Source: Diplolepis rosae | Taxonomy: Eukaryota; Arthropoda; Insecta; Hymenoptera; Diplolepididae | Length of the DNA: 64,000 nt | Assembly: GCA_030998225.1 (NCBI GenBank) | Contig: JAPYXD010000391.1 | Span: forward strand, 3,848,501 to 3,912,500 | Direction: 5' to 3' | Shown: positions 5,552 through 32,200 of the stretch, piece by piece | How positions within the stretch are numbered: position 1 is the first letter of the stretch | How the letters are laid out: every line of letters begins with the position of its first letter | Program-made: the position numbers and the translations under genes | Notes under the pieces: generated by a model | Database searches by the model: none | What the model saw: only the letters and a program-made list of their open reading frames with translations | What the model was told of the DNA's origin: nothing

Positions 5552-5553
5552 AG

Positions 5554-12884: not shown

Positions 12885-13019
12885 TTCAATTTGTATTATT
12901 TTCATAATCATTGTGTCTTTCATTGACTTATCCTCATCCCTAAGCGAGGATCATTCGATCCTAACTTAAAACGAGGAATCTTCGATCAAAGTAAGTATTT
13001 ACGTATTTGTGACGTAACA

Positions 13020-13847: not shown

Positions 13848-14609
13848 TGTTACGTCACAAGTACGTAAATACTTACTTTGATCGAAGATTCCTCGTTTTA
13901 AGTTAGGATCGAATGATCCTCTCTTAGGGATGAGGATAAGTCAATGAAAAGTACACAATGATTAGTAAAGTAATACAAATTGAATTTATTTAAATTAACA
14001 CTGATATAAACAAGGTTAAAATTTTACAATGATTCAAACAATGGCACAGGGAATAGGTAAAGAATAGAGAGAATTTTCGGTACCTTTGTTGAGTTGTGAA
14101 TAGTCCCTTTTTTATGAATGATCCTCACAGGTGTGAGGGAGAGAGAAAGATTCTTCCACTGGTGCGACGAAGACAGCAATAGGTATCCCACTGGTGTGAG
14201 GAAGACAGAAACAAATATCCCACTGGTGTGAGGAGGACAAGAATAGTTATTTCACTCTACACTGACTCTAAGATCCTTTCAAAGATTGAAAGTACAATCA
14301 GAGAATTTACGACACGTTTCTTCGGAAAACTGAACTAAACACGTATCTCACGCTGTGAATCCTTTTAAGATTTTAGAAATTTCCCGCACTTAATTTTGCT
14401 CACAAGACTAGTTTTCCCTTGGCGGCGTGTCCTTTTTATATTATATTTTTTGGTGACGTCACGCGTTGCGCAGTCTCCCGCTGCGTGTGACGTAGTTATA
14501 CCTCTCTTTTCAATAGGTGGTTTTCTCTCTCTTTTAGTAATTTCCCCAGATTTCTCTCTAGACCTAGCCTATGCCTATAGTACATTCTAATGCGTCGCGG
14601 GACGTGACA
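13848..14609 (-). repeat. 3' LTR of copy 2 (762 bp)
   Basis: Appears identical to 30733-31494. On the minus strand it starts TGTCACGTCCCGCGACG and ends GTGACGTAACA. It holds a CRE-like palindrome GTGACGTCAC (14453-14462), a TATA-like TATAAAAA (14433-14440), about three tandem units of a roughly 35-bp CCACTGGTGTGAGG repeat (about 14150-14240) and a polyadenylation signal (13985-13990). Confidence 0.95.
13985..13990 (-). terminator. Polyadenylation signal of copy 2
   Basis: AATAAA on the minus strand in the 3' LTR, equivalent to the signal in copy 1. Confidence 0.55.
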
Positions 14610-14619
14610 CCTCCCCCCT
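14610..14619 (-). other. Polypurine tract (copy 2)
   Basis: AGGGGGGAGG on the minus strand immediately before the LTR TG; identical to copy 1. Confidence 0.88.
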
Positions 14620-15037
14620 AGTTCGAGCGCGGGGGTGAAGCATCCGCGATCGAATCTTCGGAAGAAGAATACATTCGTTAATGTTTTTGAAGATACATTG
14701 AATTTCTATTTCTGACGTAATAACCAACATTCATTTCGGGGTCTCTTTTACAATTTGTATTTTTTGCATTTGACTATTTGATTCCAATATCGATTTTTTT
14801 TTTTTTTTTTTTTTTTATGTCATAAAAATTTATATTATCTAAATATTATAATTTTTTTTGTTATAAATAATTACATAGTTTTTTTTTTGAAATAGTATGA
14901 ACTTAACATAAGGTTACATATGATTTTTTCTTATATAACTAAATACATCAATAATTTTTATTTCATATTCGTAAATTATAAATATCATGTAATATAATAA
15001 TATATAAAACTGTAACGTAGTTTCATAATGTAGATTT
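14620..15037 (-). other. 3' untranslated region (copy 2)
   Basis: AT-rich, with a T19-like homopolymer around 14798-14817 (plus strand). No gene. The end next to the PPT is conserved with copy 1. Confidence 0.6.
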
Positions 15038-15486
15038 TTAAGAATTATTTTTATATTTTCTATTACGTAAAGGATTGCGGCAGTTATGAGCTAAATGTCC
15101 TCTTTGAAAACACCTTTCACAAGAGTTGGTCCATTTTTGTAAGGTTTCTTTACTGATTTCATCAGTTATTTTGAAAATTCTCGTTTCTGGGATTAAGCTT
15201 TTTTCTTTCATTTCTTCTAAAAATACATATCTTGTGGAAAGCATTTCCAAGAGTTTAGATGCTGCATTTTGCTTTGCAGACTTTTTTGAGGGGCTGGTTC
15301 CCCAATACAAGAGAAAGTTATTTTATTTTTAAAGATTTCGCAAGTTGCTTGGAATGGTGGCAGTTCTTGGTGTTTTCCAAGCGATTTTACAATATATGAA
15401 GGTTCGGAGAAATCATACTCAATGCTTATCTCGTTTAAAACTTGTACAGCAGTGCCTTCCGATAGGTCTCTTGTCTGCAAGGCCAT
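15038..15486 (-). pseudogene. dsRBD plus zinc-knuckle protein, frameshifted (copy 2)
   Basis: Homologous to the intact 149-aa gene at 11268-11717. The ATG at 15486 is preceded by an acceptor (CTTTTGCAG). The first half carries the dsRBD beginning, the second half its C-terminal Ala-rich helix and the knuckle CERCFQRGHLAHNC. The two halves are in different frames, and the break coincides with a 6-base A-run (15282-15287). It may be a real single-base loss or an assembly error, since the LTRs say the insertion is young. Confidence 0.82.
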
Positions 15487-15496
15487 TGTTTTTGAT

Positions 15497-15509
15497 CTGC
15501 AAAAGAATT
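15497..15509 (-). promoter_or_regulatory. Candidate 3' splice site for last dsRBD gene (copy 2)
   Basis: ATTCTTTTGCAG on the minus strand, 10 nt before the ATG at 15486. Confidence 0.6.
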
Positions 15510-15849
15510 ACCTGTTTGAGTTGATGATTGAATTTATTGAAATTCTAAAGTTAGTTAGTTTTTTTTTTGTAATAATTTTGTGTTTGTTGATATATTCACT
15601 TTCCGCGTTTCCTAACTCAAAGAGATATTTCATGCAGAGAAAACAGTGGTCCGTTTTTTAGAATATTTTAATTTATTAAGGTTTGTCGTTACATTATAGC
15701 GGTTAAGGAAGAAGTAGTGGTGTATATGAAATATGATTTTAAACAACGAATAAAAATTAAAAGGGAAAATTTTTTAACAAAAGTTACTAATAGATATTGT
15801 TTATATTTAGAAAAAAGAATAATAAAAAATATGTTTTGATTTATTATTT

Positions 15850-16282
15850 TTATTCGTCGTTGTTATAAATAATAGTCGATGCTTCGGAATCGACGTCGTT
15901 ATACAGTGCTTCTTGTTGGTATAAATGAATTACACGTTCGGCACAAGTTACACATAAATCTGCTCTTTGCCGCATGTAAAAAATTTGTGTATTGCAAATG
16001 GAGCAGTCGAGGCTAGATAGTTTTAACGTACAATATAAGTCTTTAGTAACTATGTGGTCTATTCGGACGGGTAATGTTACTTCGGTTTCGAAAAAGCTGA
16101 GTTCTGTCATCCAACAATCTTCGCAAACAAGTTTTTTTTTCGAGAACATTCATGTAAAAATTCTCGACCAGGGTTGTGCAGCAGTATTCTGACCATAATT
16201 GATTTTCAAAATACGGCTGAACATCCTGCTCGCTTGCTCGAACTTCTTCTGCTTCGATTGTTTCGATTTCTTGGGGCAGCAT
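15850..16282 (-). pseudogene. Cys-rich accessory protein B, frameshifted (copy 2)
   Basis: Begins at the ATG at 16282 (MLPQ, as in copy 1), 3 nt after a CAG acceptor. The first about 47 codons and the remainder (from about 16149 to the stop at 15850) are in different frames. The switch lies at a 9-base A-run (16132-16140). The second part contains CEDC, CSIC and CVTC pairs as in copy 1, plus an acidic tail about 18 residues longer. Otherwise colinear with the intact gene at 10797-11159. Function unknown. Confidence 0.75.
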
Positions 16283-16285
16283 TTT

Positions 16286-16296
16286 CTGTTGGGGAA
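16286..16296 (-). promoter_or_regulatory. Candidate 3' splice site for protein B (copy 2)
   Basis: TTTCCCCAACAG on the minus strand, 3-4 nt before the ATG at 16282. Confidence 0.6.
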
Positions 16297-16420
16297 ATTT
16301 ACAATATTTAAGGAATTTGAAATATTTGCAAAATTTAAAATTTTTTAGTATTAAGGATTTTATTAAATTTAACAAAATTTTTCATGCGTGATTACATGCG
16401 TGGAAGGTAGATACGTATAA

Positions 16421-16828
16421 TCATGCAGGGGTATTTTCTACTAGAACTTCGTTTCCTTGACTAATTTCGAATTTATAATTTAAATATTGTTCGATACATT
16501 CTCTACAATCAGCTGCTCTTTTTCGCGGAGTAATTAATAGTTCTAGACAACCGTAACAATTCATATATATGCATTCCAATTTACAAATGGAATGCCATGA
16601 TGTAAAAAATTCACAGTTATTTTGAGTTTCCTCATCTAATTTCTCGAAACAGAATTGGCAATATCTTTTTGTGGTTTGGTGATTATAATATAAAAACAAT
16701 GTTGAAGGTTCTAATTCGAAGCAATAGCTCTGTAATAAGTGCGCGTATGCTATCGGATAGTCTTGCGGACATACACCGTCTACTGGTCCAAGATGGTTAA
16801 CAATAGGTTCACTTGGAGTTGGTATCAT
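16421..16828 (-). CDS. Cys-rich accessory protein A (copy 2, intact)
   Basis: 135 aa. Cys residues concentrate in the middle and C-terminal parts: CQFC at about residue 59, CKLEC and CYGC around 85-95, CREC around 112, a likely multi-zinc fold. The order C-x2-C, about 35 residues, C-x2-C, about 12-16 residues, C-x2-C followed by a hydrophobic helix also fits protein B, suggesting a duplicated pair. The start is supported by a candidate branch point and acceptor (TTCTAAC...TTTGTAG) ending 3 nt upstream. No family recognised; a zinc-binding regulator or host-protein adaptor is only a guess. Confidence 0.72.
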   Translation of the reverse strand: MIPTPSEPIVNHLGPVDGVCPQDYPIAYAHLLQSYCFELEPSTLFLYYNHQTTKRYCQFCFEKLDEETQNNCEFFTSWHSICKLECIYMNCYGCLELLITPRKRAADCRECIEQYLNYKFEISQGNEVLVENTPA

Positions 16829-16831
16829 TTT

Positions 16832-16848
16832 CTACAAATTGTTAGAAT
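16832..16848 (-). promoter_or_regulatory. Candidate branch point and 3' splice site for protein A (copy 2)
   Basis: CTAAC (16841-16845) followed by TTTGTAG on the minus strand, directly before the ATG at 16828. Lost by deletion in copy 1. Confidence 0.62.
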
Positions 16849-17257
16849 AGATTTATTTTATTAAGGTCTGATAAGGAGATTGAAAAATAACTTTTTTGAA
16901 TATATTTTCTAATCATGCAAGGTAAAAGATTTTGCTAAAGGTATTTTACTTTCCGTCAGAAAAACAACTTTTATATTACAGTTTGTTTTTCCTTTAGTAA
17001 GAAACATTAAAGACGTGGGTACAAAAACTGTCCTTCTGACGGTATAGGACGTTCATGCACGTGGTTTTGAGAAAGGTAAGGACGGAATGTACCTGTATCT
17101 GAAAATTTTGTGAATTGACTTTAAGTCTATTAAAGAAAAGGGTGAAAGATGGAATAAAGGAAAGGTCAAAAGTTAAACGTCAAGTCGGTCAGTAAAGGTT
17201 TTGTCACTGAGCTTAAAGGAGTTTTTTGTATAAGTTCTATACGTGTTGGCGTTTTGT
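16849..17257 (-). other. Intergenic region between F-type envelope and protein A
   Basis: About 0.4 kb without an ORF. It is pyrimidine-rich on the minus strand, which suits an upstream intron region. Most of it is deleted in copy 1. Confidence 0.5.
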
Positions 17258-18946
17258 TTATTTTTTAGATATTTTTTGAATTTTCAATAGTAATAATCCT
17301 AAAATTGTAATCATAAGTAAAGTGATAAAGATTAGTGCTAATGTTAATTTATGTGCACTAGAAATAAAAATTGATGGAATGATTTTTTGAATGTTTGCAT
17401 ATTTTGTAAGGATAAAGACATGGTTTTCGAAGATTGATAATGGCATGTCTTCTTTTTGCTGAAGAAGAAGTAATACCTTTTTTAGTAAGTGAGGCTCTTG
17501 AATGGAAATATTATATAAAAATGGTGAAATTATAGCAAGGGAAGTAGTTGATTTGCTGACTGGAATTGAATTATCCATTATATTCAAATGGTTTTGAAGA
17601 TGGTAATATGGAGTTGATGAATCTAGATTGCAACCTGATTTTGTTTGCAAAATTCCTATTCCTTGGAGTGTGATTAAGGTCTTAGAGTTTTTTCGACATG
17701 ATAAGAAAATTTGTCGGGGGAAAATTGTTGAGTATAGCCATCCATGATGAAATTGCAATGGTGTTAGAAAGGGATATTCACTAAAACTGATGAATATTTT
17801 ACACTTGTATGGTTCTGAATTTAGAAACATTGATGTTTCACAAATAGGATTGTTATCGATGTTAGATATAGATCTTGGTGGGTGACAAAATGTTTGGAAT
17901 CCATTTTGATAACATGCATTGAGGAAATTTTCATTTGTTATAAAGTATGATTGGTTATTTGAAGAAATAGCGAGATAAGAATTTTGAGGTTTTATGTAAA
18001 TAGAGGAAATTACGTCAGTATTAAAATCGAGATGTATTGGAATTGGATGTGGTTTAAATAATTGAAATTCTTCAGCAGATGGGATTGGTATAGTCATAAT
18101 AAAAATCAAGTACTTATCGAATAAGAAGTATTGTATTTTAGAAAATGGAAGGACCATAGAAAAAAGGGATGTTGAAAGGTGTGGGTCTTTTTTGTTGGAT
18201 TTGAAGTCTAAGAAGGTATCAGGAAGTAGCATAGGGTGCCATAAATTAGTTGCGGCATGAGTAATAGCTTCTGTAAGTTGGTCAAGGAGTAAAAGAAAAG
18301 ATTGAGAAATTTCATGCAGGTCTTTAAGCCAATTTGCTGCTAATATTCGATATAGGTGAATATTTGGATCTTTTTGAGAATTATGCCATTTTTTGTAGGT
18401 CATAATGTTGTCAAGTTTTGAAGAAAGATTTGCAACTTTTTGGAAAAATGGATTAGGAAGTAGAAATAAATTTTCTTTGGGCCAGTAAAGGGAGGTTTCA
18501 TTTCTCATTCTTAATTCTAAAAGTACTTTTTGTATCTGTTGCAAGAATGGATCATTAGTGTTAGAAATATTCGTGATATTACGAGCTTGTCTAGATATAA
18601 ATGATATTTCTTCAAGAAAATAGTTGATGCGTTGTTCTATAAAATCAAGTTGTGTCTGATGATCGTATAAATTACAATTATTGGCAATATTTGAGAGTAT
18701 GCAATATTCATATAATTTATGTGAGAAATCTATTATTTTGTATTTAAGTACGTCTGGCTGAAAGATATCGATATAAGATATAAAATGATATTTTTCAGAA
18801 AAAAGACGAACTTTTGAAATTGGTTCAAAATAAATCCCTGAAGAATGAGAAAATTGTGAGTCTATGAAGTATTTTTCTGCTTTGGAGAAAAGGAGTGGAA
18901 TTAAAATTAAATACACTCTGGATGCTAGTTGATTAAGGAAATTCAT
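17258..18946 (-). CDS. env: Baculovirus-F/errantivirus-type envelope protein (copy 2, intact)
   Basis: 562 aa. Signal peptide at about residues 1-22 (YLILIPLLF core), then directly GIYFEPISKVRLFSE, the hallmark start of insect errantivirus Env and baculovirus F ectodomains. A mid-protein helix region contains EAITHAATNLWHPMLL and a C-terminal part GIGILQTKSGC, also features of that family. A single transmembrane helix lies at about 533-553 (LIFITLLMITILGLLLL) with a very short cytoplasmic tail. I see no clear furin site or classic fusion-peptide motif (SRQARN at about residue 115 is a weak candidate). It would be the element's second entry protein besides the chuvirus-like glycoprotein. An excellent acceptor (CTTTTCTTTTTCAG) lies 15 nt before the ATG. 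Confidence 0.82.
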   Translation of the reverse strand: MNFLNQLASRVYLILIPLLFSKAEKYFIDSQFSHSSGIYFEPISKVRLFSEKYHFISYIDIFQPDVLKYKIIDFSHKLYEYCILSNIANNCNLYDHQTQLDFIEQRINYFLEEISFISRQARNITNISNTNDPFLQQIQKVLLELRMRNETSLYWPKENLFLLPNPFFQKVANLSSKLDNIMTYKKWHNSQKDPNIHLYRILAANWLKDLHEISQSFLLLLDQLTEAITHAATNLWHPMLLPDTFLDFKSNKKDPHLSTSLFSMVLPFSKIQYFLFDKYLIFIMTIPIPSAEEFQLFKPHPIPIHLDFNTDVISSIYIKPQNSYLAISSNNQSYFITNENFLNACYQNGFQTFCHPPRSISNIDNNPICETSMFLNSEPYKCKIFISFSEYPFLTPLQFHHGWLYSTIFPRQIFLSCRKNSKTLITLQGIGILQTKSGCNLDSSTPYYHLQNHLNIMDNSIPVSKSTTSLAIISPFLYNISIQEPHLLKKVLLLLQQKEDMPLSIFENHVFILTKYANIQKIIPSIFISSAHKLTLALIFITLLMITILGLLLLKIQKISKK

Positions 18947-18962
18947 TAGGCTTCTCGGAAGG

Positions 18963-18982
18963 CTGAAAAAGAAAAGTAGGAT
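18963..18982 (-). promoter_or_regulatory. Candidate 3' splice site for F-type envelope (copy 2)
   Basis: A long pyrimidine tract ending TTTTTCAG on the minus strand, the strongest acceptor in the element. Deleted in copy 1. Confidence 0.7.
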
Positions 18983-19005
18983 TAATATTGGATAAAATAG
19001 GATGT

Positions 19006-19590
19006 TTACATATGGTTGGATTTAGGTCTAGAAGTTTTTTGGAGAAAAGGGGAAAAAAGTCTACTAAATGTTGAGGAGTTTCTTGGTGGAACTGGAGGGG
19101 GAAATTGGGTTGATTTGTCTACTTTAAAAATATTTCGTCTACGGCACTCTTTTGTAGCATGCATTTGAGTGTTACAAAATCTACAGGAATTTTCCCAAGG
19201 TATTAATTTTGGTCTTGGATCGGTTTGAATACTTTGATTTTTGGTTTTTTGCCTTTTTTTATCACCATTATTATAAAATTTTTCGTCGCAGAGATCGTAT
19301 GATCTTATTAGTAGCAATAATAATTTTAAAGCTGCTCTATTTTCTGCTAATTCACTAGTAGGGCCGGCTTGTATAACGAAATGTTCATTTATATTAATTT
19401 GTGCGAGAAAAAATGAGTTTGTTTTCGAATTCGGATCAGGATAGACTGTATATTGCGGTAACGGCAGTCCATATTTTATCGTGAAGTTTCTTAAAATTTC
19501 TACATGATTTAAAAATCCCATGGAGTCTGTTCTGTATTTCTTTTTTGGGTAACTTGGTACGTGTGTAGGCTCGTCGTAGTAATGCTCCAT
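19006..19590 (-). CDS. dsRBD plus zinc-knuckle accessory protein (copy 2)
   Basis: 194 aa. Residues about 25-95 match a dsRNA-binding domain: LNHVEILRNFTIKYGLPLPQ helix, PQYTVYPDP strand, and the ELAENRAALKLLLLL C-terminal helix; the basic KK pair is replaced by acidic or neutral residues, so dsRNA affinity may be altered. A perfect C-x2-C-x4-H-x4-C knuckle follows at about residue 136 (CRFCNTQMHATKEC), then a proline-rich stretch (PPPVPP). Acceptor GATTCAG ends 13 nt before the ATG. It sits between the tandem-dsRBD gene and the F-type envelope. In copy 1 it is fused to the envelope by a deletion. Confidence 0.78.
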   Translation of the reverse strand: MEHYYDEPTHVPSYPKKKYRTDSMGFLNHVEILRNFTIKYGLPLPQYTVYPDPNSKTNSFFLAQININEHFVIQAGPTSELAENRAALKLLLLLIRSYDLCDEKFYNNGDKKRQKTKNQSIQTDPRPKLIPWENSCRFCNTQMHATKECRRRNIFKVDKSTQFPPPVPPRNSSTFSRLFSPFLQKTSRPKSNHM

Positions 19591-19603
19591 TGCAGTTGAT
19601 TTC

Positions 19604-19612
19604 CTGAATCGG
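19604..19612 (-). promoter_or_regulatory. Candidate 3' splice site for second dsRBD gene (copy 2)
   Basis: CCGATTCAG on the minus strand, 13 nt before the ATG at 19590; conserved in copy 1 (8114-8122). Confidence 0.5.
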
Positions 19613-19627
19613 TATGGAATGTTTATA

Positions 19628-20365
19628 TTAGAATTTATTGTACTGGTTGGGAGGTCTATATCCGCATTTAAAACATTTTTTAAAGCTTTTCGTAGAGAAA
19701 GATGATGCAGTATGATTATTATTTGTTTTCATTTTATATGAATTTGTATTTTTATCACGATTGTTATTTGAAGTAATAGGTTTTGTTATTTGGCTACTCG
19801 TTGAAGGTTTTGGATCGTTTATAGATGATTCTTGAATTGTTACATGCAAATGTTCTAGTGAGTTTATCAAACGTAGTTCACATTTCTCGTCTTTATGCGA
19901 AAGAGAATTAATAACTTTTATGGCAGCAAAATCCTTAGCTGTTTTTATTGAGTTTGCTATTCCTATTTGTTTAATGTTATTAATGAAACAAATTGCTATG
20001 TATGTTGAGTCTTGTGATGAGGTTTTTATTCGTAATACTGTATATTTTGGATACTCAAATTTATTTTCAGTGCAAATTTCGTTTAATTTTTTGCAATTTT
20101 TACTAATAGAGTTTGGTTGGACGTTTTGATTTGTTTCCTTTGATTCATTAATTAAGGCATTATATAAATTTTGTGCTACCTTTTGCTTTACATTTTCTTT
20201 ATCTTTGCCACTATTCATTATTATAAAATTTTTATATTGTAAATTAACGTGAAATAGACATTCATTATTATTGGTTTGTTCAATGAGTATCTCATAAATC
20301 AGGGGTGGATCTCCTCTTTGTTGAATAATTTTGTTTAGTAAGGTTGTAAAAGGAACATGCGACAT
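19628..20365 (-). CDS. Tandem dsRNA-binding-domain protein (copy 2, intact)
   Basis: 245 aa with two consecutive dsRBD-like units. The first (about residues 5-72) has a TTLLNKIIQQRG helix, PPLIYEIL strand and VKQKVAQNLYNALI helix. The second (about 88-158) has LNEICTENKFEYPKYTVL and TAKDFAAIKVINSL. A polar Ser/Thr/Asn linker and a C-terminal C-x2-C (CFKCGY) follow. Tandem dsRBDs are typical of Dicer partner proteins such as R2D2/Loquacious, and a lone dsRBD is used by dicistrovirus 1A to block RNAi; a silencing-suppressor role here is inference. The ATG is one base after a strong acceptor (CTAACATCTTCAG) that also lies right behind the glycoprotein stop. Confidence 0.8.
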   Translation of the reverse strand: MSHVPFTTLLNKIIQQRGDPPLIYEILIEQTNNNECLFHVNLQYKNFIIMNSGKDKENVKQKVAQNLYNALINESKETNQNVQPNSISKNCKKLNEICTENKFEYPKYTVLRIKTSSQDSTYIAICFINNIKQIGIANSIKTAKDFAAIKVINSLSHKDEKCELRLINSLEHLHVTIQESSINDPKPSTSSQITKPITSNNNRDKNTNSYKMKTNNNHTASSFSTKSFKKCFKCGYRPPNQYNKF

Positions 20366-20366
20366 T

Positions 20367-20382
20367 CTGAAGATGTTAGATT
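20367..20382 (-). promoter_or_regulatory. Candidate branch point and 3' splice site for tandem-dsRBD gene (copy 2)
   Basis: TCTAACATCTTCAG on the minus strand. It overlaps the end of the glycoprotein gene and touches the ATG at 20365. Confidence 0.65.
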
Positions 20383-22406: not shown

Positions 22407-22408
22407 CT

Positions 22409-22422
22409 CTGGAAAAAGGAGG
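22409..22422 (-). promoter_or_regulatory. Candidate 3' splice site for chuvirus-like glycoprotein (copy 2)
   Basis: CCTCCTTTTTCCAG on the minus strand, 2 nt before the ATG; identical in copy 1. Confidence 0.68.
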
Positions 22423-22525
22423 TTCCAATTAGCAGCTTGCTTTGTAATATAAGAATAGGAAAATGTTTTATCATTAAATATGTATATTTTTGAAGTTATT
22501 GATTTACTTTTTGTATTTTGCGTTC

Positions 22526-22807
22526 CTAGTTCATTATATCCAACATGTCGGCTATGACAATGTGATTTGATAGCCGTAAACTGAGAATTAAATTTTTGTA
22601 TGCGTCCGGTCCTCTTGTTTTGATTGTTGAAAAAATGTCTTTTATTATTTCTGGATTGTTTAGATTTCTGTTCCATGTGGGGATATTGCAGTCGTCTTTC
22701 TTAAAAATTCCAGTTTGAATTAAGTATGGCCAGAGAGCTACCATGTCGATAAAACAGGGAACTATTTCAATGAGATCATCTATGCGTTTGCGATGAATTT
22801 GTTCCAT
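22526..22807 (-). CDS. CARD-domain (death-fold) accessory protein (copy 2, intact)
   Basis: 93 aa, consisting of nothing but a putative caspase recruitment domain. Landmarks are the IHRKRIDDLIEIV helix, the LWPYLIQTGIF segment (a CARD-like W/L-P-L-L..G.f turn), NPEIIKDIFSTIKTRGPDAY (the R-G-P-x-A-F/Y box is highly characteristic of CARDs), and a last helix IVIADMLDI. CARDs mediate homotypic pairing of Apaf-1/Dark with initiator caspases (Dronc in flies). A CARD-only protein could act as a decoy; that is inference. The acceptor CATTATTCCAG ends 5 nt before the ATG. Position: directly after pol, before the glycoprotein. Confidence 0.75.
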   Translation of the reverse strand: MEQIHRKRIDDLIEIVPCFIDMVALWPYLIQTGIFKKDDCNIPTWNRNLNNPEIIKDIFSTIKTRGPDAYKNLILSLRLSNHIVIADMLDIMN

Positions 22808-22812
22808 TATAT

Positions 22813-22827
22813 CTGGAATAATGTGTT
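22813..22827 (-). promoter_or_regulatory. Candidate 3' splice site for CARD gene (copy 2)
   Basis: CACATTATTCCAG on the minus strand, 5 nt before the ATG at 22807; same in copy 1. Confidence 0.58.
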
Positions 22828-23061
22828 ATGTCTGAAAATTCATTTTTATTTTGTTTTATATATATTTTTTATTTTATATATAAAACATATATTTTCATAA
22901 CCAAAAAAAAAAAAATTTTATTTTTTATACTTTTACTATTTATCGACAAAATAAAATTTCTATATCTTATTTAAGTTGTATATGTATATATATATAAATA
23001 TATATATATATATTTTTTTTTATAATTAAGGTACAGATATTTTGTTTCTATTTTTATTTAT

Positions 23062-24510
23062 TTACTTTTGTACTTGCACATGTGAGCGTTTTAGTCTATT
23101 AATGTGGACAACAGTAGGTTTGCCTTTATAGCTTATTTTGACATTCCCTTTTCCTAACACTTCCAATATTTCATAAGGCCCTGTATAATGGCTGTCAAGT
23201 TTTTTAATTTTTCCTCCTTTTAATAAAAACACGTAATCTCCAATTTTTACTTCTAAAGGACTTATTTTTTTGTCATAATATAATTTCGATTTTTCTTTTG
23301 CTGAAATAAGATTTTCTCTTGCTTGTGTTCGCATTTCATGTAGTTGTGTTACGAAATTAATTAAATAATCGTCATATGTTTGTAATTTTTCTTGTTGTGA
23401 TAAAGGTTCACTGGAAGGTTCACGAGCTAGTTTACCAAAAACCAATTCATAGGGTGTGCATTTTGTGCCTTCATGTACACTAGTATTATATGAGAACATT
23501 GCTAGTTCAAGCCAATCATCCCATTCTGAATTTTTTGCAACAAATTGTTTGAGATATTCTCCTAAAACATGATGTGAACGTTCTAATGACCCGTTTGATT
23601 GAGGGTGAAATGCTGTGGTACGAAATTGTTTAATTCTAAAACGTTTTGCCAATCTTTTTAATAAATTACTTAAAAAATCTCTGCCTTGGTCAGTAAGTAC
23701 TCCTTTCGGTGATCCAAATATGCAAATAAATTTTTTCACGAAAGCATCTGCTATCGTACTAGCTTGGTGATTAGGAAGAGGTATTGCTAAAGAATATTTG
23801 GTAAAATTGTCTTGTATCGTTAGAATATATAAGTTACCAGATTTTGTTTCAGGTAGTGGACCAACAATGTCCATTGATATTTTTTCAAAAGCAGTAGTGG
23901 GTGTGTCAGTGATTACCATAGGGTTTTTTGTTTTGACTCTGATTAATTTTTTCAGTTGACATTGTAAACAGCCTTGAATATATTTTTGAATGTCTACTTT
24001 CATATTTTCCCAAAAAAATTTTTGGCGAATTCGGCTATAAGTTTTTGTAACGCCTTTATGGCCTCCTAATGCTGAGGAGTGAGCTTCTTCAATTAAATGA
24101 GTTCGTTGTTCCTTTGTTGGATATTGCGTTATTCCATTGCAAACTATAATTTTTGTAGTTGAATTTGAAAAAATTGAATCGAAAATTGATTTCACTTCTT
24201 CCCAAGGTATATGATTAATTCTGGAAGTTTTTGATATACTAATAGATCGTAATTTAAATTTTTGAGATAATTCATGTAATGAATGAATTGATAATTTTAT
24301 ATTATTTAAAGTTTCAGATAAATTATCTTTAGTTTCTTCTTCAATTGGAAGTGCAAAGTGGTAGTAGTTTCCTTTTTTAATCTCTTTTGCTATCCCCTTT
24401 TGTAAATTTTTAAATTTTGGTAAAGTTTCACGTTTTTCTAAAATTTTTGATCCGTTGTCGCGAGGAGTTCCATTTGTTGTAACAAAATATGCATAATTAT
24501 CTTTTCGCAT
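23062..24510 (-). CDS. pol: Integrase part of Pol (copy 2)
   Basis: 482-codon ORF, very probably the last section of the Pol polyprotein rather than a free gene. The HHCC zinc-binding region spans about residues 138-183 ([12 protein letters not shown] ... CLQCQ). The D,D-35-E catalytic triad is complete: SMDIVGP at about 212, LTDQGRD at about 272 and the Glu of SLERSHH at about 308, with exactly 35 residues between the last two. A GPY/F-like module (YTGPYEILEVLGKGNVKI) and a basic tail close the protein. The N-terminal about 60 codons match the end of the acidic linker ORF of copy 3, so the frame change just upstream (about 24540-24570, at an A-run) is likely a recent break or sequence error. 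Confidence 0.9.
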   Translation of the reverse strand: MRKDNYAYFVTTNGTPRDNGSKILEKRETLPKFKNLQKGIAKEIKKGNYYHFALPIEEETKDNLSETLNNIKLSIHSLHELSQKFKLRSISISKTSRINHIPWEEVKSIFDSIFSNSTTKIIVCNGITQYPTKEQRTHLIEEAHSSALGGHKGVTKTYSRIRQKFFWENMKVDIQKYIQGCLQCQLKKLIRVKTKNPMVITDTPTTAFEKISMDIVGPLPETKSGNLYILTIQDNFTKYSLAIPLPNHQASTIADAFVKKFICIFGSPKGVLTDQGRDFLSNLLKRLAKRFRIKQFRTTAFHPQSNGSLERSHHVLGEYLKQFVAKNSEWDDWLELAMFSYNTSVHEGTKCTPYELVFGKLAREPSSEPLSQQEKLQTYDDYLINFVTQLHEMRTQARENLISAKEKSKLYYDKKISPLEVKIGDYVFLLKGGKIKKLDSHYTGPYEILEVLGKGNVKISYKGKPTVVHINRLKRSHVQVQK

Positions 24511-24529
24511 AGTTAATTGATCGCGACAT

Positions 24530-25105
24530 TCAACTAAATTTTTCTTTGTTATAATTTTTTTCTGTTTCAGAGTTTATAGGAGGAGGTTCTGGGGGTGGAC
24601 GATTATAATTATCATGATCTTTATCGATTTTTTCACAATTTATTTGAGATCTTCGGTTTAATCTCAAATTTTCTTCAAAATAAGGCTCTTCAAATTCTTC
24701 TTCCAATTTTTCTTCTTGGTTTTCTTCAAACTTCTCATCAAAATTTTCCTCAAGATTGTCTTCAAAATTTTCTTCAAAATTCTGTTCGAAATTCTTTTCA
24801 AAATCGTCTTCAAGATCATCTGCAAAATTCTCTTCCCAATTTTCTTCATAATTTTCTCCGTCATTTCCTTCGTGTGAGGTTTCAATGTCGTTGATTTCAT
24901 CTTCTGAGGTTGAAAAATAATTCTCACTTTCTTCACTTTCAAATTCATTAATATTTTTTGGCTTCTTGGCATTCTTCTTCTTTTTATTTTTGGCTTGAGT
25001 TTGTTTCAAATAATCTAAATAATCAGGATCAGAGTCGGAATCTGATTCTACTTTTGTTCGGCTTCCCTTTTGCACATTTATTTCTGGTAATTCGTTTTCA
25101 AACAT
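24530..25105 (-). CDS. Acidic Glu/Asn-rich linker region of Pol (copy 2)
   Basis: 191-codon ORF in a third frame between the RNase H part and integrase. It is strongly acidic, with many degenerate repeats of EENFE/DNLEENF type and a SDSDSDPDYLDYL segment, followed by a proline-rich PPPEPPP stretch. A related but shorter acidic region occurs in copy 3 (44246-44779); copy 1 has lost it by deletion. Low-complexity acidic linkers are not standard in gypsy Pol. I treat it as a polyprotein insertion between RNase H and integrase; whether it is translated by frameshifting or as a separate product is open. Confidence 0.6.
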   Translation of the reverse strand: MFENELPEINVQKGSRTKVESDSDSDPDYLDYLKQTQAKNKKKKNAKKPKNINEFESEESENYFSTSEDEINDIETSHEGNDGENYEENWEENFADDLEDDFEKNFEQNFEENFEDNLEENFDEKFEENQEEKLEEEFEEPYFEENLRLNRRSQINCEKIDKDHDNYNRPPPEPPPINSETEKNYNKEKFS

Positions 25106-25118
25106 TTGTTTTCTTGGC

Positions 25119-27836
25119 CTACCTCTCTTTTTTTTTTGTTTGAGAGGGAATATTTTTCAAATTTGTAAGTAGATTTTTTCTTGGCCTACCTCGTGGTTTT
25201 TTCATAAGAGGTTTAGAAGAAAAATTTTCGTCTAATTTTTCTTGAGTTTCGTTTCGATTCAAATTTTTTGCTTTTTCTTGCTCTATTCTCTTTTGAGCTC
25301 TCGTAGTAATAGTTTTCCATGATAAATTTTCGTATTTTTTGGAAAACACTGGACTTAATAAAAATATTGTCATAAAAATAAGTCTTGAAGCCATATTTTT
25401 GAATAAATTTGTGTATTTTAAAATATTCTTACCAATCTCACTAAATAATTCTTCACTAAGAAATTCCTGGAAATATTCTGGGATTTTTGAGTCGATATTT
25501 AATATTTGGGCTTCCGAAATTTCGCTAAAACGATCTACGTCGTCTGGTACGATTTCTGGATTCAAGTTTCTTCGTTTTGAAGGTCTTACCTCATTTTTAG
25601 AGTTTTCTTGTTTTTTTCTTGTAAAAGTTTTCTTTGAAAACATTTTTTCTTGGGAAGTCATAAAAGTATCATTGGCGTCAACTTGTAAATATCTTGATTT
25701 CTCTTTGTTATCATCAATAGGGTTTCTTGAGAGAGCGTCTGCATTTACATTCATTTTTCCTGCTTTGTAAATTACATCAAAATCATATTCTGCGAGTTTC
25801 AGTCTCCAACGTGAAACTCGTGAACAAGGGTCTTTAGAATTTTGAAACCAAACTAGAGGTTTGTGATCAGTCACTAAAGTAAATTTTCTCCCATACAAAT
25901 AAGGACGAAAATGAGTTACACAAAATATTATAGCAAGAGCTTCTTTCTCATATGTATCATATTTTTTCTCAGTATCACTTAGACTACGTGAAGCATATGC
26001 TATTGGCTTATCTTTACCTATTTTACCTTGTGATAAAATACCTCCTATTGCAAATCCTGAGGCATCTGTTGTGAGTATAAAAGGTTGAGAAAAATCAGGT
26101 CGTTGTAAAAGTGGTTCTTCACATAATTTTGCTTTTAAAATTTCGAAAGCTGCTTGTTGTTTTTCTGTCCAATTAAAAGGTGTATCTTTTTTCAGAAGTT
26201 GATTTAAAGGACTTGCAATTTTCGAAAATCCATCAATAAATCGTCTATAATATCCTGCTAAGCCTAAAAATTGTTTAACATTTTTCTGTGTTTTTGGGAC
26301 TGGAAAGTTTTTTACAGCTATTATCTTTTTTGGATCTGGACGTACTCCATTTTTATCAATTATATGACCTAAATATCCTACTTCAGGTCGTAAAAATTCG
26401 CATTTGTCTGGTTGTAAGTGAAGATTTGCTTTTCTAAGTCTTTCTGCTAAATTGTTAAATTTAATTTCGTGCTCTTCTAGAGTATTTGCATATATAACTA
26501 TGTCATCGAGATATACAAAAAGTTCCGTTCCTATTAATCCAGTTAATGTTAAATCCATTAATCTTTGAAATGTGGCAGGTGCAGTTTTTAAACCGAAAGG
26601 CATTCTATCGAATTCGTAATGACCGTGAGGTGTAGAAAACGCGGTTTTATGCGAGTCTTTTGGATCCATTTTTATATGGTGAAAACCGGTAGCTAAATCA
26701 AACACTGAAAAATATTTTGCTGATCCTAGAGAATCAAGTATATCGTTTATATTAGGTAAAGGATACGAATCGCCAATTGTTTTTTCATTTAATTTACGAA
26801 AATCAAGAACCATTCTCCATTTTATTTTTCCTTGAGAATCAGGTTTTTTAGGAACTATCCACACTGGAGTGTTATATGGTGATTGTGAGGGCTTGATTAT
26901 TTTATTTTTTAATAATTCATCGACTTGTCTTGTAATTTCTTCCTTGTGAACTGGGGGAAATCTATATTGTCTTGAAAAAATTGGAGCGTCATCTACAGTT
27001 GGAATTGAATGTTGTAATACATTAGTAGCTTCAAGTGGTTCTCCTGGGATTTGAAATCTGTCTGCATTATTTTTAATTAATTTTTCTACATGTTCATATT
27101 CATCTTGATTTAAATGGTCTAATCGAAGAAGTTTTTTAATACATTCTACTCTGTCTTCGTCTGTTACATTATAAAATTTGCATGAGTTAATTAGAGAATT
27201 GTCAGTTTTTTTAAAAAAGTTATTTAATATTTTACTTGATAAATCTTCGTTATTTGTTTGTTTGAAATTAATTAAATTTTCAATTTGTTTATAGCATTCT
27301 TGTTCTTCAAAGTCTTCTAAATTAACTAATGGGACGGATAATGTAATTGGGATTTCATTTGTGTTTGCAAATTTTAAATAAGCTTTTCCTCTGTGATTTT
27401 TTACAACTGCGTCACCTACGTAGACGCCATCTTGGATATGTAATCGAGGTACATACCCTTCACTCTTTTCTGTATTTTTTATATTAACATAAAATGTTGT
27501 AACTGTTCGAGCTGGAATAGTAAATGTATTGGTAGATTTAAAAGGGTAACAGTGATTCTCAATTTCTAAGCATTTTGAAGTATAGTTTATATTCACACTA
27601 TTATCTTGAAAAAATTCTGATCCTAATACTCCATCTTCTTCTACTGGGACTTCATTGGGAATAATGTTAAATATCGTTGGATAACCAAAAATGTTTATTT
27701 TTACCTGTCCTAACGTGTAAAGTGGTAAATCATTAATTCCTGTAAGTTTCAATACGTTTTGGCTATTTATGGGTACTTCAGGGTTGAGAACCTTTTGTTT
27801 AATTAAATTTCGAGCAGCACCAGTATCAATCATCAT
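25119..27836 (-). CDS. pol: Pol: protease, reverse transcriptase, RNase H, AT-hook region (copy 2)
   Basis: 905 codons from the first Met; the frame is open further upstream into gag in the -1 frame. Aspartic protease DTGAARNL at residue 4; reverse transcriptase with the intact YLDD box at about 440; RNase H with TTDASG at about 590 and NADALSR at about 700. A hydrophobic stretch ([10 protein letters not shown]) at about 830 and an AT-hook RGRPRK at about 877 follow. The ORF stops at 25119 just past a 10-base A-run; a second RGRPRK is encoded right after it in the next frame, so the AT-hook is duplicated across the break. Confidence 0.93.
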   Translation of the reverse strand: MMIDTGAARNLIKQKVLNPEVPINSQNVLKLTGINDLPLYTLGQVKINIFGYPTIFNIIPNEVPVEEDGVLGSEFFQDNSVNINYTSKCLEIENHCYPFKSTNTFTIPARTVTTFYVNIKNTEKSEGYVPRLHIQDGVYVGDAVVKNHRGKAYLKFANTNEIPITLSVPLVNLEDFEEQECYKQIENLINFKQTNNEDLSSKILNNFFKKTDNSLINSCKFYNVTDEDRVECIKKLLRLDHLNQDEYEHVEKLIKNNADRFQIPGEPLEATNVLQHSIPTVDDAPIFSRQYRFPPVHKEEITRQVDELLKNKIIKPSQSPYNTPVWIVPKKPDSQGKIKWRMVLDFRKLNEKTIGDSYPLPNINDILDSLGSAKYFSVFDLATGFHHIKMDPKDSHKTAFSTPHGHYEFDRMPFGLKTAPATFQRLMDLTLTGLIGTELFVYLDDIVIYANTLEEHEIKFNNLAERLRKANLHLQPDKCEFLRPEVGYLGHIIDKNGVRPDPKKIIAVKNFPVPKTQKNVKQFLGLAGYYRRFIDGFSKIASPLNQLLKKDTPFNWTEKQQAAFEILKAKLCEEPLLQRPDFSQPFILTTDASGFAIGGILSQGKIGKDKPIAYASRSLSDTEKKYDTYEKEALAIIFCVTHFRPYLYGRKFTLVTDHKPLVWFQNSKDPCSRVSRWRLKLAEYDFDVIYKAGKMNVNADALSRNPIDDNKEKSRYLQVDANDTFMTSQEKMFSKKTFTRKKQENSKNEVRPSKRRNLNPEIVPDDVDRFSEISEAQILNIDSKIPEYFQEFLSEELFSEIGKNILKYTNLFKNMASRLIFMTIFLLSPVFSKKYENLSWKTITTRAQKRIEQEKAKNLNRNETQEKLDENFSSKPLMKKPRGRPRKNLLTNLKNIPSQTKKKER

Positions 27837-27955
27837 GCGTGTTGGATTTTTTAAACCTTCCGTTGATATTATAATTGATGGAATTGAAGTGGACTTTGAA
27901 ATATTTATTGTTGTTGTTGTATGATCGTTAGAATTGGATGCCAGTGGTTCTCGAT

Positions 27956-29821
27956 TTATGCTTTCCTCAGTGCACCCGTGCTGGGGAGAGCTTTGGAGTT
28001 TTCCTGATGAGCTGTTTGTGATTGGCTATTTGGTCGTATCTTGCAGTCTCGTACTAAATGACCGGGTTTTTTACAATAATTGCAAACTACTTCAGTATAA
28101 TTTGAATTTTGTTGATTATTATTATTTTGTAAAAACCTATATTCATATGGTTTATTTCGATTTTGAGACTGTCCTAAGTTAAAGTTTTGATACTGTCCTG
28201 GATTCCATTGTCTATTATTATTATTAACATTATTGTTATTATTGTAAAAATTTCTAGGAAAATTGTTATTATTGTTGTGTCTTTGTTGTAAAACATTATT
28301 ATTATTGTTTTTATAATTATTATTTCTATTTTGCAAATTATTATTGTTATTGTTATTAAAATTATGATTTTTATTTCTTAAAAAATTGTTATTCGAAAAA
28401 TTATTGTAATTGTTTCTTGCAAAATTATTATTATTATTACTTCTTTGACCATTGAAATTACTATATCCTTGTTGGTTAGGACGCAACAAAAAATTTTTTT
28501 GTTTATTATTAAAAACTGCATCTTGAGCTTTACTTAAATGAAAACATTTTTCAGTTGTGTGACCTGGTTTTTTACAAATTAAACAAATAGTTTTGTTTTC
28601 AAGTGCTACGTTAAATCGGGTTGTTTTGTTATTTTTATTATTAGATGATTCGTCACTTTTTGAATAATCCATATTTTTATTTCTTCGTAGTGCGGAATTT
28701 GCAGCTAATCTTCGTTCTATATCAATACTGTCGCTAATAACTTCTTTAAAAGTATCCTTTTCTTCAACACGAATTTCTAACTCAGGACGCAAACCGCGTA
28801 TAAAACATTGAATTACGTCTTTTTCAAGGTTTACTTTAAAATTATTATCTACCTGACCATTATTATTGAGCCTGTGAGCATCTTCGATTTTGTCGGCAAT
28901 TTCTTTTATCCTAGCAGCATAGGAAAGTACATTTTCTCTTTCCCACATAAATGTATTACCTAATTCTCCCTGTAACTGGTACACGCTTTTCGCAGGGGCA
29001 TATACTCTTTTCAATTTTTCTATCAATTCTTCTATTGTTGTATAAGTAGAACCAAAAATGCATTTTCTGGCTTCTCCAGTTAATTTACCTCTTAATAGCC
29101 TTGCGAGGTTTTCTTGAGCTGCAGGTGTCGGTAGCATTGCCTTTGCCTCCATGCAACCCTCAATAAAATGTGACAATGGGAGGTTACTTCCGTCAAACAA
29201 TGGGACCACCTCTAGCGCGTCGCGTAAGGATACCTGCTGGCTGTTGGGTATGACCACGGCCATCTCTTCGTTATTTACTCTTACGGGATTATCCTGATTT
29301 ATGGCTTCTGTGTCGCTTTTGTCGTCGTCGCTATCGTTGTTACTAATTATAGATTCGCGTGCCAATGAGGTTTCCAATCTTTCTTTCAAAGTTTTATTAT
29401 CTACTGTTATTACTGTTGAGCTTAGCAAATTGAATTCGTCAAAATAAGATAATTCATTCGTTAGAGTTTGATCTTGATTACTGGATCCTGTTACAATGCT
29501 TAAATCTGGACAGAAACTTGAATGAAACCCGCTAGTTTTTTCTGAATTTTCACGTGATATATTTTGATTATTAATTAGAGTCTTGTCTAAACTTGAATCA
29601 TCTAACTTAAGAGTGTTATCTAATTCTTGTTCTGTAGGGATTGGATCAGGGATATTTTGGCATTTATTATCAGTTGAATATTCTCTATTTCTAATTGGTT
29701 TTATTTTTAAATTACCCTTTTGATTCAAATCTACTATTTTTGCAAGCTGACTATCGTGTTTAGCTTGACTACGTGTTATAACTTTCGGGGTAGATTCTAA
29801 AGGGATATTTGGTTTTGACAT
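27956..29821 (-). CDS. gag: Gag (copy 2, intact)
   Basis: 621 aa, longer than most gypsy Gags. A polar, acidic N-terminal about 200 residues is followed by a capsid-like region at about 205-400 ([40 protein letters not shown]). Zinc knuckles lie at about 410 ([14 protein letters not shown]) and 579 ([14 protein letters not shown]), separated by an unusual Asn-rich segment of about 130 residues. The ATG at 29821 is the first of the long frame after the leader. Gag would assemble particles and package RNA through the knuckles. The pol frame overlaps its 3' end in the -1 frame. Confidence 0.93.
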   Translation of the reverse strand: MSKPNIPLESTPKVITRSQAKHDSQLAKIVDLNQKGNLKIKPIRNREYSTDNKCQNIPDPIPTEQELDNTLKLDDSSLDKTLINNQNISRENSEKTSGFHSSFCPDLSIVTGSSNQDQTLTNELSYFDEFNLLSSTVITVDNKTLKERLETSLARESIISNNDSDDDKSDTEAINQDNPVRVNNEEMAVVIPNSQQVSLRDALEVVPLFDGSNLPLSHFIEGCMEAKAMLPTPAAQENLARLLRGKLTGEARKCIFGSTYTTIEELIEKLKRVYAPAKSVYQLQGELGNTFMWERENVLSYAARIKEIADKIEDAHRLNNNGQVDNNFKVNLEKDVIQCFIRGLRPELEIRVEEKDTFKEVISDSIDIERRLAANSALRRNKNMDYSKSDESSNNKNNKTTRFNVALENKTICLICKKPGHTTEKCFHLSKAQDAVFNNKQKNFLLRPNQQGYSNFNGQRSNNNNNFARNNYNNFSNNNFLRNKNHNFNNNNNNNLQNRNNNYKNNNNNVLQQRHNNNNNFPRNFYNNNNNVNNNNRQWNPGQYQNFNLGQSQNRNKPYEYRFLQNNNNQQNSNYTEVVCNYCKKPGHLVRDCKIRPNSQSQTAHQENSKALPSTGALRKA

Positions 29822-30699
29822 TGAGTCATTATAAATTTACAATATTTTGTATTGAGCGTTGATTGTTTATTGTTATTTTAAATTTGTTTATAACAATAAA
29901 AAAAAACTATATATAAAATTTGTTTTTTAAGAAAAATAAAATGAGATTAGTAAAATTTATTTTTAATTTGTTTATTTATTTTTAATAACAATATAATTTG
30001 AAATGAAATTTGTATTTCGTCATTTGAAAATAAAATAATGATATAAAAATATAATTATTTCAAATATTCAAATTAAATAAATAATCGCTCAATTGTTTGT
30101 AAATTTATAATATTTAATAATAAATTTCTTAAAATAATAAAATATTTTTCTTTACCAACTGCATGTGCCCTTTATGTAAAATTAAAATAATTTATTTTAT
30201 TTATTTATAAATTGTTTATAACAATTAAACAAATTTGTTTATAATAATGATCATTCGAAATATTCATAAATTATTTTTATTATATTGGAAAAGTTAACTT
30301 AAGTGCAAATCGTTGGACAAAAATTTTTTTTTTGCAAATAAAAATATTCTGTTTTTTATGTTTGTTTTAACTTAAATCAAAACTTGGTTAACAAATTAGA
30401 ATATCTTTTTAAATAAGATAAGTTACTTAATCACTTAGGTTAGCCTCAAGGTCAGATCCCTGCGTGATTTTTCAAACTTATTTTATTTTTAAACAATTTA
30501 TATAAATTATAAAATTTCAAAGAAATGATCTGATTATTAAATCATTAAGGTTAGCCTCAAGGTCAAATCCCTTTGTGATCTAACAAATCTATTTTATTGA
30601 AATTTTAAGTTTTAAAGTTGAAATAATATTTCATAATCATTTATTTATTTATTTATTTATTATTAAGAACCAATGTGTTCAATTTCAATTGACTTGTGT
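29822..30699 (-). other. 5' leader of copy 2 with repeated motif
   Basis: Untranslated, AT-rich. It includes two copies (about 111 bp apart) of a conserved block ending in TCAC...GTGA half-stems around TCAAGGTCA (see the repeat feature). Otherwise I see no gene. Confidence 0.7.
30428..30590. repeat. Leader repeat with TCAAGGTCA (nuclear-receptor-type) sites, copy 2
   Basis: Two blocks of about 38 bp sharing TTAGCCTCAAGGTCA, with TCAAGGTCA at 30446-30454 and 30557-30565. Copy 3 has three related blocks. TCAAGGTCA is the textbook monomer site of FTZ-F1/SF-1-type nuclear receptors. The repeat occupies the leader position that holds the insulator in Drosophila gypsy. Confidence 0.75.
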
Positions 30700-30717
30700 T
30701 TCCCGGCCGATGCACCA
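30700..30717 (-). other. Primer-binding site, tRNA-Gly type (copy 2)
   Basis: The minus strand reads TGGTGCATCGGCCGGGAA, 15 nt inside the LTR end. Its complement equals the CCA-tailed 3' end of insect tRNA-Gly(GCC) as I know it. Copy 3 has the same site with one inserted base. Confidence 0.85.
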
Positions 30718-30755
30718 GAAAAAAAGGAAGTATGTTACGTCACAAGTACGTAAAT

Positions 30756-30761
30756 ACTTAC
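30756..30761 (-). promoter_or_regulatory. Candidate major 5' splice donor in U5 (copy 2)
   Basis: The minus strand reads TCAAA|GTAAGTATT, a near-consensus donor about 28 nt from the LTR end. It could serve all eight downstream acceptors. Conserved in copy 1 (12991-12996) but not seen in copy 3. Confidence 0.55.
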
Positions 30762-31317
30762 TTTGATCGAAGATTCCTCGTTTTAAGTTAGGATCGAATG
30801 ATCCTCTCTTAGGGATGAGGATAAGTCAATGAAAAGTACACAATGATTAGTAAAGTAATACAAATTGAATTTATTTAAATTAACACTGATATAAACAAGG
30901 TTAAAATTTTACAATGATTCAAACAATGGCACAGGGAATAGGTAAAGAATAGAGAGAATTTTCGGTACCTTTGTTGAGTTGTGAATAGTCCCTTTTTTAT
31001 GAATGATCCTCACAGGTGTGAGGGAGAGAGAAAGATTCTTCCACTGGTGCGACGAAGACAGCAATAGGTATCCCACTGGTGTGAGGAAGACAGAAACAAA
31101 TATCCCACTGGTGTGAGGAGGACAAGAATAGTTATTTCACTCTACACTGACTCTAAGATCCTTTCAAAGATTGAAAGTACAATCAGAGAATTTACGACAC
31201 GTTTCTTCGGAAAACTGAACTAAACACGTATCTCACGCTGTGAATCCTTTTAAGATTTTAGAAATTTCCCGCACTTAATTTTGCTCACAAGACTAGTTTT
31301 CCCTTGGCGGCGTGTCC

Positions 31318-31347
31318 TTTTTATATTATATTTTTTGGTGACGTCAC
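31318..31347 (-). promoter_or_regulatory. LTR promoter elements: CRE palindrome and TATA-like box
   Basis: GTGACGTCAC (31338-31347) lies 12 nt upstream, on the minus strand, of TATAAAAA (31318-31325), a compact promoter arrangement in U3. Confidence 0.55.
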
Positions 31348-31494
31348 GCGTTGCGCAGTCTCCCGCTGCGTGTGACGTAGTTATACCTCTCTTTTCAATA
31401 GGTGGTTTTCTCTCTCTTTTAGTAATTTCCCCAGATTTCTCTCTAGACCTAGCCTATGCCTATAGTACATTCTAATGCGTCGCGGGACGTGACA

Positions 31495-31499
31495 CATAG
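31495..31499. repeat. Target-site duplication CATAG (5' side of copy 2)
   Basis: Matches 13843-13847. Confidence 0.93.
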
Positions 31500-32200
31500 G
31501 ATACAAAAACATAATATGAAAATACTTTTATTACAGAATTTTGAAATATACAAGTTGACCAATTTTTAATCGAGTAAATCGGCTACTTTAAGCAAAAAAT
31601 TATGTTAAAAATATTTTATCAAAAAAAAATAAGACACATTAAATTACGGTTTAAAATCCACATTCATAGATTGATGGTAAAAGCAGTTTAAAGTTTTTTA
31701 ATCTTACGTTTTAGTGACGTATGCACAGACTTTTAATCAGATAAATGAAATGCTTTATACAAAGTCAAAATTTTCTTATTACTGCACTTAATCAAATTTA
31801 TAAAGTAAAAATATTTTTTAATTGATGCTTTCACTCAATTCTTTAAACATTCATTAATTGAAAATTGTACTCAAAATTTAATCTTGCAGCGTTCCAATAT
31901 TCCCACAATGTTACAAAATCTTATTAATCATTATTTTAGTCGAATTATTTTCAAAATAATTAAAAATTAATGTAAATATTTTGATTAAATACTCTGTCAA
32001 ATTTTGCATTTGACTGATCTTGCAAAATTGTTGACAGTTTTGAATACCGATAGAAGAAACTTTAAATGAAATTTTATGTCCATAAATGCTTAAAGTTCTA
32101 TATAGAAATATCAACTACAACATTCTCAAATTTTATAAATAAACTACTAAATTCAAAAAGTTTCGGATTTTTTTAAAAACTGTACAAATTTCAAATATGA

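Follow-up and report, generated by a model that had tools for sequence, protein, structure and literature searches.

A Ty3/gypsy-type long terminal repeat element of Diplolepis rosae carrying eight accessory genes, among them two unrelated predicted envelope proteins

Insect endogenous retroviruses (ERVs) are described as having an F-type third open reading frame (ORF) (PMC12992720), and glycoproteins of another class have also been reported in or near insect long terminal repeat (LTR) retroelements. Anakin is a mosquito BEL/Pao element with a chuvirus glycoprotein (PMC7642597), mosquito gypsy elements with type III fusion glycoproteins have been mentioned (PMC13172572), and a 2023 survey described Jingchuvirales glycoprotein endogenous viral elements near Gypsy fragments, chiefly in Coleoptera and Hymenoptera, with no clear capture by Gypsy in the sections consulted (PMC10084718). 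In the Colorado potato beetle, many contigs with matches to F-proteins and to chuvirus- or phasmavirus-type glycoproteins have been reported, the two kinds separately (PMC9963324). Here, we analyzed a stretch of 64,000 nucleotides from the hymenopteran Diplolepis rosae (assembly GCA_030998225.1, contig JAPYXD010000391.1, positions 3,848,501 to 3,912,500; hereafter, the window), in which positions 13848-31494 are occupied by a single minus-strand LTR element of 17.6 kb (element A). We consider it, with a probability of about 70%, to be an LTR-bounded ERV of the Ty3/gypsy type with eight accessory genes, which would encode entry glycoproteins, RNA- or zinc-binding proteins, and a protein blunting cell death.

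The two LTRs of element A were identical at 762 of 762 bases. Their TG...CA ends and a target site duplication within the range of 4-6 bp agree with membership in Ty3/gypsy (Metaviridae). Furthermore, two more copies of the host repeat that received the element, one near 37.72 kb in reversed orientation and one near 62.63 kb, represent empty sites, in which the sequences flanking element A are joined with a single CATAG. Because of the identical LTRs, the 5-bp duplication, and these empty sites, element A is a single transposition unit. The absence of any difference between the 762-bp LTRs also points to a young insertion, each LTR having an upper 95% limit of about 0.002 changes per site, as calculated from 0 differences at 762 sites. 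The stretch resembling a primer-binding site (PBS), the complement of which we take to match the 3' end of insect tRNA-Gly, was retained with 2 mismatches in a diverged copy of the family (copy C), the chance expectation in the window being 0.01 matches, and the identical ten-base polypurine tract (PPT), AGGGGGGAGG, was also found to abut the LTR of another copy (copy B). A preliminary description, made from the letters of the DNA alone, had claimed a complete LTR element with LTRs, CATAG duplication, PBS, and PPT, and this claim was borne out by all of these features together with the empty sites. The interspersed host repeat is present three times in the window (13015-13847 together with 31495-33414, 36324-39219, and 61136-64000) and has received two insertions of the family of element A, each at its own position. 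No tRNA genes were found in the window, and an Rfam search of it gave no match. The features of element A and the related copies are collected in Table 1.

Table 1. Positions of the features of element A and of its relatives in the window (numbered from the first base of the window).
Feature	Positions	Strand	Evidence or remark
5' LTR, 762 bp	30733-31494	-	TG...CA ends; no difference from 3' LTR
3' LTR, 762 bp	13848-14609	-	pairwise LTR comparison
Target site duplication CATAG, left	13843-13847	.	one copy only at two empty sites
Target site duplication CATAG, right	31495-31499	.	same CATAG as left flank
PBS-like stretch, 18 nt	30700-30717	-	starts 15 nt past 5' LTR
PPT, AGGGGGGAGG	14610-14619	-	abuts 3' LTR
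gag, 621 aa	27956-29821	-	two CCHC knuckles (pattern)
pol part 1 (protease motif, reverse transcriptase, RNase H)	25119-27836	-	RVT_1 1.1e-35, RT_RNaseH 8.7e-39 (Pfam)
Glu/Asp-rich linker ORF between RNase H and integrase	24530-25105	-	
Integrase ORF, separate frame	23062-24510	-	Integrase_H2C2 3.4e-21, rve 3.1e-13 (Pfam)
CARD-like protein, 93 aa	22526-22807	-	CARD E 0.018, below Pfam cut-off
env1, chuvirus-type fusion glycoprotein, 676 aa	20376-22406	-	PF24664 1.5e-247
dsRBD1 protein, 245 aa	19628-20365	-	dsrm 1.9e-10, two stretches (Pfam)
dsRBD2 protein, 194 aa, with CCHC knuckle	19006-19590	-	dsrm 5.9e-4, below cut-off
env2, baculovirus-F-type envelope, 562 aa	17258-18946	-	Baculo_F 4.6e-23 (Pfam)
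Cys-rich protein 1 (Cys1), 135 aa, 11 Cys	16421-16828	-	32 homologues
Cys-rich protein 2 (Cys2) region	15850-16375	-	overlapping 110- and 99-aa ORFs; a single ORF of 120 aa in copy B
dsRBD3 region with CCHC knuckle	15038-15486	-	split over two overlapping frames; a single ORF of 154 aa in copy B
Copy B, same family and gene order	1-13019	+	3' LTR 12163-13019; 5' end beyond window; damaged
Copy C, diverged 5' part	43035-49870	-	LTR fragment, PBS-like stretch, gag-pol-integrase

In the direction of transcription, the gene order is gag, pol part 1, acidic linker, integrase, CARD-like, env1, dsRBD1, dsRBD2, env2, Cys1, Cys2, and dsRBD3 (dsRBD, double-stranded RNA-binding domain). Both CCHC knuckles of Gag were assigned by pattern, the zf-CCHC Pfam score being slightly under the cut-off. 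The frame of pol part 1 is open from 28025, giving a 70-nt overlap with gag that lies, by coordinate arithmetic, in the -1 frame. With the protease called by eye from a DTG motif where the pol ORF begins, the order of protease (PR), reverse transcriptase (RT), RNase H, and integrase is that of Ty3/gypsy; the Pfam matches of pol part 1 were RVT_1 and two RT_RNaseH models, and no BEL-specific Pfam model matched it up to an E value of 1. RNase H, the acidic linker, and integrase occupy three frames in element A. Because copy C shares the first of these frame changes and does not have the second in the same form, the three-frame pol may be at least partly a result of damage. The linker was absent from copy B and found in part in copy C, where its length differs from that in element A mostly in steps of three.

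The two envelope proteins were assigned to different families, and neither of them matched the Pfam family of the other. The match of env1 to PF24664, the Monjiviricetes viral fusion glycoprotein, was full-length, covering profile positions 6-649 of 653; we take this family to be of the chuvirus type, a label for which the papers cited above were also used. The gene had been noted previously with a start at 22676, which is likely too early, while its presence was confirmed: because the ORF of copy B begins at the corresponding codon, the start is most likely 22406, with which env1 would not overlap with the CARD-like ORF. The env2 product has a C-terminal membrane-type segment. Among PDB structures, no credible relative was found for env2, and the candidate for env1, glutathione transferase kappa at 0.019, was rejected as not credible.

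The CARD-like protein of element A scored 15.5 bits, compared with a Pfam gathering cut-off of 23.9. The CARD profile matched 22 of the 32 family members scanned (E up to 0.1), with a best value of 1.3e-5, and a precomputed PF00619 assignment was present on one homologue. The protein also shares a motif with Dronc, at a weak E value, and its best PDB matches were designed repeat proteins. As the query from element A was weak by itself, we retain the putative CARD label solely on the family scan; the CARD protein of the preliminary description is supported by its family, with the match of this copy falling below the cut-off.

As for the putative RNA- and zinc-binding proteins, the dsrm cut-off was passed by dsRBD1 and by the dsRBD3 of copy B (4.2e-7), whereas dsRBD2 scored 20.8 bits compared with a cut-off of 23 and was found to be related to the dsRBD3 of copy B (1.6e-8). 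The three proteins could be descendants of a single ancestor that was duplicated within the element, and, judging from their domains, they would bind double-stranded RNA and most likely shield the element RNA from the small-RNA machinery of the host. The main rival to this silencing role is that the dsRBD-knuckle proteins act as RNA chaperones or as export or packaging factors, similar to Rev or nucleocapsid, for multiply spliced RNA of the element. A CCHC knuckle with Gag-type spacing in dsRBD2 and in the dsRBD3 of copy B speaks for such a role, and a long element with many downstream genes could be expected to need RNA export and splice control. However, dsRBDs are not known as a usual module for export or packaging, and the relatives of dsRBD1 and dsRBD3 in the PDB, all of them weak, were mainly proteins that load the RNA-induced silencing complex, with Staufen and another double-stranded RNA-binding protein behind them. 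We regard the chaperone or export role as a serious possibility with somewhat poor odds. Cys1 had no Pfam match, and its structure model had a predicted local distance difference test (pLDDT) value of 40. All eight accessory genes that had been claimed, comprising the CARD-like gene, two envelopes, three dsRBD genes, and two Cys-rich genes, were found to be present by Pfam, ORF, and pattern evidence, with the qualification that dsRBD3 and Cys2 are each split over two overlapping frames in element A.

The same set of genes was found in copy B, which is inserted at a different point of the same host repeat and has counterparts, in the same order, of gag (truncated by the window start), pol, integrase, CARD-like, env1, dsRBD1-2, env2, Cys1-2, and dsRBD3. 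Its dsRBD1 is without about the first third, its dsRBD3 and Cys2 are each one ORF, and its dsRBD2 and env2 are fused in a 741-aa ORF. Thus, the accessory ORFs were neither located in unrelated insertions nor confined to one copy, as copy B has its own LTR and insertion point. In copy C, no accessory gene was detected at an E value of up to 1e-4, in agreement with either their loss or their never having been present. Outside the window, we obtained 36 homologues of dsRBD1, 52 of the CARD-like protein, and 32 of Cys1 (source ENA), and 9 of these 120 matched two or three element genes, all nine in the gene order of the element. The fused neighbors were integrase-CARD (3), CARD-env1 (1), env1-dsRBD1 (1), dsRBD1-dsRBD2 (3), and dsRBD1-dsRBD2-env2 (1), none of them covering Cys1, Cys2, or dsRBD3. 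Because copy B keeps the order and the outside fusions follow it, the accessory genes travel with the element. An artefact of assembly or nesting, by which unrelated genes would have been inserted into an LTR element, might be suspected from the repeat-rich region with two copies side by side; however, we rejected it as extremely improbable, given a second copy that has this gene set in unchanged order and is inserted elsewhere in the host repeat, the empty sites, and the neighboring-gene fusions in other contigs. When viral contigs were scanned with env1, env2, pol part 1, and the alignments of dsRBD1 and CARD, 3-49 pattern matches were obtained in each case, with no relative confirmed, and a scan of prokaryote genome contigs with integrase gave 39 pattern matches and no confirmed relative. 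At 49311-49653, close to the 5' end of copy C, there are short repeats that partly resemble the leader of element A. Elsewhere in the window, an ORF with a hAT transposase dimerization domain (33459-34490; E 3.3e-8) and a cluster of short inverted repeats, 75-92% alike (57165-59002), were observed.

Selection was evaluated by the ratio of nonsynonymous to synonymous differences (pN/pS) between element A and copy B in 12 gene pieces, with codons containing a stop in either copy dropped and the acidic linker left out. The pN/pS was below 1 in 12 of 12 pieces: 0.21 for gag, 0.26 for pol part 1, and 0.08 for integrase, compared with 0.27 (bootstrap 0.11-0.61) for CARD-like, 0.19 for env1, 0.24 for env2, 0.36 (161 codons) for dsRBD1, 0.17 for dsRBD2, 0.19 and 0.34 for the two dsRBD3 pieces, 0.29 for Cys1, and 0.45 (70 codons; 0.32-0.60) for Cys2. 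A plain codon-position test gave p < 0.05 in 10 of 12 pieces, the exceptions being dsRBD1 (0.14) and the second dsRBD3 piece (0.54). Because pN/pS was below 1 for all pieces compared, the accessory proteins have evolved under constraint similar to that on gag-pol. These values bear on the alternative that the accessory block consists of functionless captured genes hitch-hiking with a decaying element. Such decay might be indicated by the split frames of dsRBD3, Cys2, and pol in element A, by inner stops in the integrase (two), CARD-like (one), and Cys1 (one) pieces of copy B, and by the many outside homologues that are partial, as at least 98% of the query was covered in 4 of 36 for dsRBD1 and at least 99% in 12 of 32 for Cys1. 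However, the low pN/pS in every piece, the coverage of at least 99% in 33 of 52 CARD-like homologues, and the gene order kept in other copies make this alternative quite improbable. In element A, gag, PR-RT-RNase H, env1, CARD-like, dsRBD1, dsRBD2, env2, and Cys1 are open; because the frames of dsRBD3, Cys2, and pol are not wholly intact, element A may be dependent on other copies, or the assembly may contain small errors.

For the blastn-aligned blocks, outside of which Cys1 and Cys2 lie, the identity between element A and copy B was further determined in 47 windows, each 250 columns wide. The stretch that begins in gag and ends at about 20.9 kb in env1 comprised 29 windows, of which 22 were at 94-100% and seven at 82.5-93.6%, whereas the next 17 windows were at 76.6-89.6% and the last one, beside the PPT, was at 93.5%. 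The LTRs of the two copies have the first 34 and last 144 bp in common and otherwise show no strong match. Because the identity drops near 20.9 kb and the LTRs are alike only at their ends, the 3' half, along with most of the LTR, differs in history from the 5' half, and template switching between two lineages would fit. This difference raises the alternative that one envelope is active at a time, a later-captured one replacing the other, with the copies in transition, since the env1 windows before about 20.9 kb were at 95.6-99.6% and those of env2 at 76.6-82.3%. We consider such a replacement unlikely, as both envelopes are open in element A and both are constrained between the two copies, but it is not negligible.

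Taken together, the domains predict two unrelated fusion-type glycoproteins for cell entry, five proteins for RNA or zinc, and one protein against cell death. In the mechanism that we propose, Gag-Pol particles would bear one or both envelopes, of the chuvirus and F types, and spread between cells. Known insect ERVs pass from somatic support cells to germ cells, and, by analogy, the spread of element A would most plausibly be from soma to germ line. The genes downstream of pol would be expressed from spliced RNAs, the CARD-only protein may bind a CARD of the host, the Dronc/Dark apoptosome being the most likely target, and thereby delay cell death, and the Cys-rich proteins may be zinc-binding regulators; these roles in entry, RNA control, and apoptosis control are predicted from domain type. 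Extending this, it may be possible that the element represents an insect ERV lineage that has grown complex, with two entry glycoproteins, a CARD-only anti-apoptotic decoy, and silencing antagonists combining dsRBD and zinc knuckle that were duplicated at home, as an invertebrate counterpart of complex retroviruses, an idea to which we give slightly less than even odds. Invertebrate retroviruses are usually viewed as gag-pol-env elements restrained by PIWI-interacting RNAs. If the idea is true, retroviral complexity also arose outside the vertebrate retroviruses, and the element would offer retroviral proteins as direct candidates for counteracting the small-RNA and apoptosis pathways of insects. 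The preliminary description had likened the element to a complex retrovirus, which is fair, and to a small DNA virus, a likeness that lies in gene content and gained no other support.

Among known systems, the insect errantiviruses or insect ERVs (gypsy, ZAM, and Idefix) resemble element A in the Metaviridae-type pol, the LTRs, and the F-type envelope after pol (PMC12992720), a feature represented here by env2 downstream of pol (Baculo_F 4.6e-23). Element A differs from them in its length of 17.6 kb, in the second unrelated envelope, and in having genes of the CARD-like, dsRBD, and Cys-rich kinds. In the main text of that paper, the word "accessory" is absent. Anakin similarly has a captured chuvirus-type glycoprotein inside the LTR boundaries, as does element A, whereas its pol is of the BEL/Pao type and thereby probably of a superfamily other than that of the pol of element A, and a second envelope or accessory genes are not mentioned in the sections seen (PMC7642597). 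Compared with the Jingchuvirales elements near Gypsy fragments, the glycoprotein gene here lies within a complete LTR element, and a Ty3/gypsy-type element of this kind was sought by that survey and not found there, according to its accessible parts (PMC10084718). The mosquito gypsy elements carry the same class of envelope; in the text retrieved, accessory genes and double envelopes are not mentioned, and the words "accessory" and "dsRBD" are absent (PMC13172572). The Colorado potato beetle has both kinds of envelope in one genome, not described as one element in the portions consulted (PMC9963324), and its contigs are possibly pieces of such elements. Troyka, which has 3-bp duplications, CG ends, and no envelope in the parts available, does not fit (PMC12440569). 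Our literature search, with preprints and most subscription papers outside its scope, revealed no LTR element in which two envelopes or genes of the dsRBD or CARD kind had been described. A metazoan survey of envelope-carrying elements reportedly made by Chary and Hayashi (bioRxiv 2024, eLife 2025) could describe relatives. Complex vertebrate retroviruses, such as HIV-1 and HTLV-1, are alike in having extra regulatory or host-control genes after pol and unlike in their RT family and single envelope, and we know of no accessory gene of theirs that is homologous to those found here. Element A is a complex variant of the envelope-carrying Ty3/gypsy-type retroelements, new relative to the literature searched.

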